A stretch of DNA of 64,000 nt. Source: Bacteroidota bacterium. Its GTDB lineage: Bacteria; Bacteroidota; Bacteroidia; Chitinophagales; Chitinophagaceae. Positions within the stretch are counted from its first letter, which is position 1. Every line of letters begins with the position of its first letter. Positions 39,637 to 41,749 of this stretch are shown here, one piece after another. The DNA lies in NCBI GenBank assembly GCA_947452555.1, contig CANGDH010000001.1:310001-374000 (forward strand), in the 5' to 3' direction. A program made the position numbers and the translations under genes. A model generated the notes under the pieces. The model was not told the origin of the DNA and did not search any database. It saw only the letters and a program-made list of their open reading frames with translations.

Positions 39637-40563
39637 ATGCAAGAATTACCCGTTGTTTCCGCAGATCAAAGTACACGCTTAAAAAAGCCAGATTGGTTAA
39701 GAGTTAAATTACCAATTGGAGAGAGCTATAAACATGTGCGTGGTTTAGTGGATACGCATAAATTACATACTATATGCGAAAGTGGTAATTGTCCTAATAT
39801 GGGTGAATGTTGGGGTGAGGGAACAGCAACTTTTATGATTTTGGGTAATATTTGTACAAGAAGTTGTCAGTTTTGCGCAGTGGCTACTGGACGTCCCAAG
39901 CCAGTTGAATGGGACGAGCCTCAACGAGTTGCAGAAGCCGTTTTTTTAATGAAGGTTAAACATGCAGTATTAACAAGTGTAGATAGAGATGAATTACCAG
40001 ATGGGGGTTCTATAATTTGGGCGAATACAATTAAAGCAATCAAAACTTTAAGTCCAGAAACTACATTGGAAACTTTGATTCCAGATTTCAGAGGTATACA
40101 AGAACAAATTGATAGATTAATAGAAGCTGCTCCAGAAGTGATTAGTCATAATATGGAAACAGTAGAACGAAATACTAAACGTGTTCGTATTCAAGCTAAA
40201 TACCTACGTAGTTTAGGTGTTTTAGAATCATTGAAAAAAGGTGGCATGCGAACGAAGACAGGATTAATGTTAGGCATTGGAGAAGAGAAGCATGAAGTGA
40301 TACAAACAATGAAAGACTTAGTAGGTGTGGGCTGTGACGTATTAACACTTGGTCAATATTTACAACCTACCAAAAAACATTTACCTGTACAACGTTTTGT
40401 TCATCCCGATGAATTTGCAGAGCTAAGACAGATAGGATATGAATTAGGGTTTGATTATGTAGAGAGTGGACCGTTGGTGCGTTCTTCTTATCATAGTGAA
40501 AAGCATGTAATTGCAGGATGGGGAAGAAACAAATGGATGGAAGAATTAGCAATAAAAAAATAA
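39637..40563 (+). CDS. lipA: Lipoyl synthase
   Basis: [34 protein letters not shown] double FeS motif; [23 protein letters not shown] 39637 preferred over TTG 39625. Confidence 0.96.
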
Positions 40564-40577
40564 ATCTGCTACATCAT

Positions 40578-40612
40578 AAAAAAAGGCTCCAATTTATTTG
40601 GAGCCTTTTTTT
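40578..40612 (+). terminator. Intrinsic terminator after lipA
   Basis: AAAAAAGGCTCCAA-tttat-TTGGAGCCTTTTTTT. Confidence 0.9.
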
Positions 40613-40740
40613 ATAATTAATCTATTGAGAGAGATTATAATTAATCTATTGAGAGAGATTATAATTAATCTATTGAGAGAGATTATAATTAATCTATTGA
40701 GAGAGATATAATTAATCTATTGAGAGATTATAATTGAGAG
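40613..40740. repeat. Tandem repeat, 24-bp unit ATAATTAATCTATTGAGAGAGATT, 5 copies plus a partial sixth
   Basis: Direct reading: 40613-40636, 40637-40660, 40661-40684 identical; 40685-40707 (23 bp), 40708-40729 (22 bp), then ATAATTGAGAG fragment 40730-40740. Confidence 0.97.
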
Positions 40741-40748
40741 TTAATACC

Positions 40749-40768
40749 GAATTCATTTTAATGAATTC
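40749..40768. repeat. Perfect inverted repeat (9-bp arms)
   Basis: GAATTCATT-tt-AATGAATTC. Confidence 0.9.
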
Positions 40769-40770
40769 AA

Positions 40771-40805
40771 GGATTAAGATTTAAGCATAGCTTAAATCTT
40801 AATCC
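40771..40805. repeat. Perfect inverted repeat (16-bp arms, 3-nt loop) overlapping the ROK stop codon
   Basis: GGATTAAGATTTAAGC-ata-GCTTAAATCTTAATCC. Confidence 0.95.
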
Positions 40806-41749
40806 CACATTAGGGCAGAAGCGCCTAAAATTGCAGCGTCTGATTCTTTCAAATGACTAAATAAAATCTTTACTTTATTTTCAAAAATCTCAATCACATT
40901 CGCTTCCATATGTTCACGAGTAGGTTTCAAAATCATATCGCCAGCTTTTGTTAAGCCGCCAAATAAGATAATGGCTTCAGGACTCGAAAACATTACAAAA
41001 TTTGCCAAAGACATTCCTAATATCTTACCTGTGTATTCAAATACTTCCTTAGCAACTTCATCGTCTTTCTGCGCTGCTTCAAAAACATCTTTAGAAGTAA
41101 TTTTCTCTAGCGGAATAGATCTTAATAAACTAGGTCGGTTGGTAGTACTTAAAATTTCTACTGCGGTAAGTGCAACTCCAGTAGCGGATGCATAACTTTC
41201 AAGAGAGCCTTTTTTACCAGTTCCAGTGTGCAATCTTCCGTCAGGAATAATAATAGTATGTCCTAGTTCTCCAGCAAATCCATCATGACCATATATCAAT
41301 TGTCCATTGGCAACTATTCCACTTCCAACACCTGTTCCTAAGGTAATCATGATAAAATCTTTCATGCCTTTAGCTGCACCATACATCATTTCACCAACAG
41401 CAGCTGCATTCGCATCGTTGGTTAATTTTACTGGCAATTTAAATTTGTCTTGAACCATTTTAGCAAAAGGGATCACTCCTTTCCATGGCAAGTTTGGAGC
41501 ATATTCAATGGTACCTGTATAGATATTTCCATTGGGTGCACCTATTCCAATTCCCTTGATACGACCAACACCACCTACTTTTTCAATTAACTCACTTAGT
41601 TTGACATATAACTCGTCAATAAATGTGTGTACCTGCGCATGTGTGTTAGTAGGCATAGAACTTGAATGTAAAACGTTTCCGTCTTTATCTACTATACCAT
41701 ACTTAGTACCTGTCCCACCAATATCAACACCAACTACATAAGAATCCAT
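40799..41749 (-). CDS. ROK family sugar kinase (glucokinase-like)
   Basis: VVGVDIGGTGTKYGIVD; LTNDANAAAVGE; TLGTGVGSGIVANGQLIYGHDGFAGELGHT. Confidence 0.93.
   Translation of the reverse strand: MDSYVVGVDIGGTGTKYGIVDKDGNVLHSSSMPTNTHAQVHTFIDELYVKLSELIEKVGGVGRIKGIGIGAPNGNIYTGTIEYAPNLPWKGVIPFAKMVQDKFKLPVKLTNDANAAAVGEMMYGAAKGMKDFIMITLGTGVGSGIVANGQLIYGHDGFAGELGHTIIIPDGRLHTGTGKKGSLESYASATGVALTAVEILSTTNRPSLLRSIPLEKITSKDVFEAAQKDDEVAKEVFEYTGKILGMSLANFVMFSSPEAIILFGGLTKAGDMILKPTREHMEANVIEIFENKVKILFSHLKESDAAILGASALMWD

Follow-up and report, generated by a model that had tools for sequence, protein, structure and literature searches.

A probable slippage-born minisatellite in the gap between lipA and a convergent kinase gene

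Just behind the terminator of lipA, in the 64-kb stretch of DNA that we analysed (the window), a 24-bp unit is repeated head to tail. What is this array, and where did it come from? An earlier note, made from the sequence alone, had offered a VNTR, a protein-binding array and a structured 3' end as possibilities.

The array and its surroundings

The features of the locus are as follows.
39640..40563, + strand: lipA, lipoyl synthase, left neighbour (TIGR00510 equivalog, 359.9 bits against a cut-off of 310)
40573..40617, unstranded: symmetric terminator (from sequence, inverted repeats and folding; termination itself is predicted)
40611..40735, unstranded: 24-bp tandem array of 5.3 copies (TRF score 229; unit unique to the locus)
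40613..40684, unstranded: array copies 1-3, identical (from sequence)
40685..40730, unstranded: array copies 4 (minus one T) and 5 (minus one GA) (from sequence)
40731..40743, unstranded: putative degenerate sixth copy, ATAATT, then 8 nt lost, then GAGAGTT (as read from the sequence)
40749..40768, unstranded: 9-bp hairpin GAATTCATT/AATGAATTC, kept in several relatives (inverted-repeat search, relatives' gaps)
40771..40805, - strand: 16-bp perfect hairpin over the kinase stop codon, with no T-tract (covariation in 7 species)
40799..41749, - strand: ROK-family kinase, glucokinase-like and called glk, the convergent right neighbour (TIGR00744, E=3e-70, 237 bits, just under the cut-off of 260)

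The tandem array is real: TRF recovered it exactly at 40611-40735 (period 24, 5.3 copies, 96% matches) with a score of 229, whereas 308 intergenic gaps, the lipA-kinase gap among them, reached at most 83 when shuffled 20 times with their dinucleotides preserved. The other two TRF arrays in the window scored 50 and 55. As the earlier note had described, the first three copies are identical and the next two have lost 1 and 2 nt. A T is missing from the end of copy 4 (GATATAA vs GATTATAA), and one GA of the GAGAGA stretch from copy 5. The trailing fragment ATAATTGAGAG, which starts at 40731, is best read as a sixth copy from which 8 nt (AATCTATT) would have dropped out between two ATT repeats. 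The first bases of the array double as the base of the lipA terminator stem. The earlier note was right that the array is non-coding and sits where the lipA terminator ends, between convergent genes. A coding reading was rejected, since no ORF of at least 60 aa was called over the array, copies 4 and 5 carry indels, and the units of relatives (23 and 26 bp) are not multiples of three. A CRISPR array was also discarded because the units abut directly, with no unique spacers.

The unit belongs to this locus alone. All five matches with up to 3 mismatches in the 2.28-Mb genome lay inside the array, and the unit was absent from 100 relatives at up to 2 mismatches. The earlier note had proposed to look for copies scattered genome-wide, which would have spoken for an ordinary interspersed family; this search, once run, found the unit confined to the array locus. 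The array thus consists of non-coding repeats of at least 10 bp that abut head to tail, with a locus-specific, non-interspersed unit, as in an intergenic minisatellite.

Both flanks of the array are structured. The terminator has two arms of 20 nt (40573-40592 and 40598-40617) that are 95% complementary and separated by a 5-nt loop. As this palindrome has an A-tract on its left and a T-tract on its right, it would be usable by both genes, and it is plausible that it serves lipA (+) as well as the kinase (-). The strongest structure after the terminator is the kinase's own 16-bp 3' hairpin. In seven species, 92% of the cells of its stem were paired, compared with 74% in shuffles, and 17 double changes were found, compared with 6.5. 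Its retention with compensatory changes could reflect either selection or palindrome-making template switching. The hairpin takes in the stop codon and bases of the preceding codon. Because no T-tract directly follows the kinase hairpins, transcription of the kinase may continue across the array as far as the symmetric terminator; provided that it does, the array would be part of the 3' UTR of the kinase mRNA. The earlier note mentioned neither the symmetric terminator nor the 16-bp kinase hairpin, nor the tail shared by 18 species and the arrays of sister species that are described below.

We also asked how well the repeat itself folds. The AATCT/AGATT inverted repeat pointed out earlier is present in the unit, but 20% of units shuffled with the same dinucleotides folded equally well, and for four tandem copies this proportion was 55%. 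The array RNA alone gave a folding z of -2.1, which was no better than chance once the null kept the repeat structure, and the strong folding z of the whole gap was mostly due to the terminator and the kinase hairpin. A scan of the gap against Rfam gave no family at the gathering score, with sub-threshold matches located mostly over the terminator. A structured 3' end formed by the repeat itself is therefore not borne out, the folding of the window's unit being no better than chance.

Arrays and gap turnover in other species

Two other species carry arrays in the same lipA-kinase slot, G174 with 3.5 copies of a 23-bp unit (98%) and G032 with 4.3 copies of a 26-bp unit (96%). Their units resemble neither each other nor the 24-bp unit of the window. 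The G032 unit folded better than shuffles (p=0.007), the G174 unit weakly so (p=0.08); a tendency of units to form hairpins would be expected if hairpins promote slippage, but equally if they are under weak selection. In a tree of lipA and the kinase, the window genome (G000), G170 and G174 formed one clade (support 0.999), while G032 grouped with G034, which has no array. There were therefore at least two separate expansions, and three if the units of G000 and G174 have independent origins.

To define a strong array we took at least 3 copies, at least 90% match and a score of at least 100. Among 651 intergenic gaps sampled in 11 species (1.44 Mb, comprising 464 kb of the window genome, ~420 kb each of G174 and G032, and 143 kb of eight others), the lipA-kinase arrays of the window genome, G174 and G032 were the only strong multi-copy ones. 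The nearest below threshold were two repeats of G174, one an array of 20 bp x 4.2 at 86% and the other a duplication of 80 bp x 1.9. With the window genome excluded, arrays were found in 2 of 36 lipA-glk gaps and in 0 of 642 other gaps (Fisher p=0.003; p=0.004 for gaps of at least 100 bp). The recurrence at this slot is suggestive, the p values taking no account of relatedness or of the way the case came to light: it concerns two further species, found on inspecting about 50, and one of them belongs to the small clade of the window genome.

The gap itself comes and goes. In 15 of 53 species it is reduced to 0-5 bp, with no terminator, array or hairpin, which means that no component of the gap is indispensable across the genus. 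This loss occurred at several places in the tree (e.g. L013, L032, L033, L145). Most of the other species retain the gap and have no array. A slot with no array often holds a single hairpin specific to the species or species group, e.g. CTTCAATTTATTGAAG (L012, L017; species G009, G012, G018, G051, G115, G120). Tandem duplications with a period of 20-24 bp were about ten times commoner in gaps than expected (10 observed vs 0.95 in dinucleotide shuffles), as counted in the intergenic gaps of G000 C1:10001-474000 and of relatives. A perfect 50-bp x 2.1 tandem duplication straddles the 3' end of an ORF at G000:C1:52624-52726 (L148).

Origin of the array and competing explanations

Behind the lipA terminator, 18 species of the genus have in common a tail similar to ATAATTATATATTTT. 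The unit opens with ~14 nt that are a version of this conserved tail (ATAATTAATCTATT), with small differences, and the array therefore derives from resident sequence rather than from an insertion. G170, whose kinase is 98.7% identical, has ~1.75 diverged copies of the window's unit and lacks the kinase hairpin region; this plausibly represents an early or contracted state of the array. Compared between species, with one genome for each, copy number is about 1.75 in G170 and 5.3 in the window genome.

In our judgement the array is probably a lineage-specific, non-coding minisatellite and a VNTR candidate, which would have arisen when resident DNA slipped during replication, in a spacer that is dispensable and prone to repeats. 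At the far end of the lipA terminator, the conserved tail ATAATTAATCTATT and about ten adjacent bases would have been duplicated in tandem, and the duplication would then have expanded, most likely by replication slippage between strong palindromes, namely the terminator stem and, across the array, the kinase 3' hairpins. In vitro, archaeal polymerases slip at hairpins that have short direct repeats on either side (PMC4134008), and the palindromes may have played the same promoting role here. The three identical copies adjoining the terminator would be the youngest, copies 4-6 decaying through small slippage deletions. The spacer is presumably repeat-prone and under little constraint, which would explain the unrelated arrays, different inserts or complete lack of a gap in other species; the array would be nearly neutral, and its copy number is expected to vary between strains. 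Slippage with decay at one end had already been proposed in the earlier note and is supported as a reading, although the slippage itself is what we infer. Of the three functions it had considered, the VNTR fared best, the other two finding little support.

Selection could instead act on a 3'-end spacer or hairpin element, the slot favouring repeated hairpins, in the kinase 3' UTR or as a buffer for convergent transcription, while their sequence is free to turn over. The three array-bearing species at one slot, the folding of the G032 and, weakly, G174 units beyond shuffles, the structured flanks with a covarying kinase hairpin, and kinase transcripts that may cross the array as their hairpins lack a T-tract are all in line with this. 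It is nevertheless unlikely, as the window's unit folds no better than chance and is not conserved, and as the gap is missing from more than a quarter of the species and most others have no array. That the slot behind the lipA terminator is selected for fast-changing, unrelated hairpin arrays, which different species of the genus would evolve again and again because an array between convergent transcripts, in the kinase 3' UTR, improves mRNA 3' ends or separates the two transcription units, we hold to be quite unlikely. Binding of a nucleoid protein or regulator to each 24-bp unit (about 2.3 helical turns) would account for the regular spacing and the A+T-richness, in a convergent gap of the kind where positive supercoils gather, as seen with GapR (PMC8360656). 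This is very unlikely, since the unit is not conserved even in the closest relatives, the sister-species units of 23, 24 and 26 bp are dissimilar, and the 18-nt core showed no clear excess elsewhere in the genome (at 3 mismatches, 8 matches outside the array vs 4 for the reversed control).

An assembly artefact, with a true copy number of one or two, might be feared in a draft of 13 contigs. We find it highly improbable for an array of 125 bp, shorter than a usual read, which lies inside a 753-kb contig, has distinguishing indels in copies 4 and 5, and has counterparts in separately assembled sister genomes. A minisatellite carried by a small mobile element (MITE) of the BrickBuilt type would have a similar unit length (23 nt) and a host that is also a member of the Bacteroidota (PMC4596501). 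It can be almost wholly discounted here: the array occupies one locus, with no dispersed copies found, its unit arose from resident sequence, and no terminal inverted repeats bound it, the inverted repeats outside it being local hairpins that belong to the terminator or to the kinase 3' end.

Comparison with known systems

As a minisatellite, the array could be a strain-typing marker for the Sediminibacterium-like group of Chitinophagaceae. The three species, whose arrays are unrelated but have units of similar length and share one orthologous gap beside strong palindromes, also provide a natural setting in which to ask whether tandem duplications are seeded by terminator hairpins. Our literature search yielded background only and no report of the lipA-kinase array. 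A plasmid iteron, which shares direct repeats of about 20-24 bp with the array, was rejected because the array is chromosomal, between two metabolic genes, with no adjacent replication gene. BrickBuilt of Porphyromonas gingivalis is a MITE-borne 23-nt minisatellite with terminal inverted repeats, dispersed in about 10-20 copies (PMC4596501). Both it and the array are intergenic tandem units of similar length from Bacteroidota, but the array is single and resident. The array is ordinary in kind and most resembles bacterial intergenic minisatellites and VNTR loci, in which non-coding units of some tens of bases follow each other head to tail, each unit occupies one locus, and the copies are identical at one end and decaying at the other. 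It differs from these loci in that sister species carry arrays of other, unrelated units at the orthologous position, a recurrence that makes it mildly interesting.
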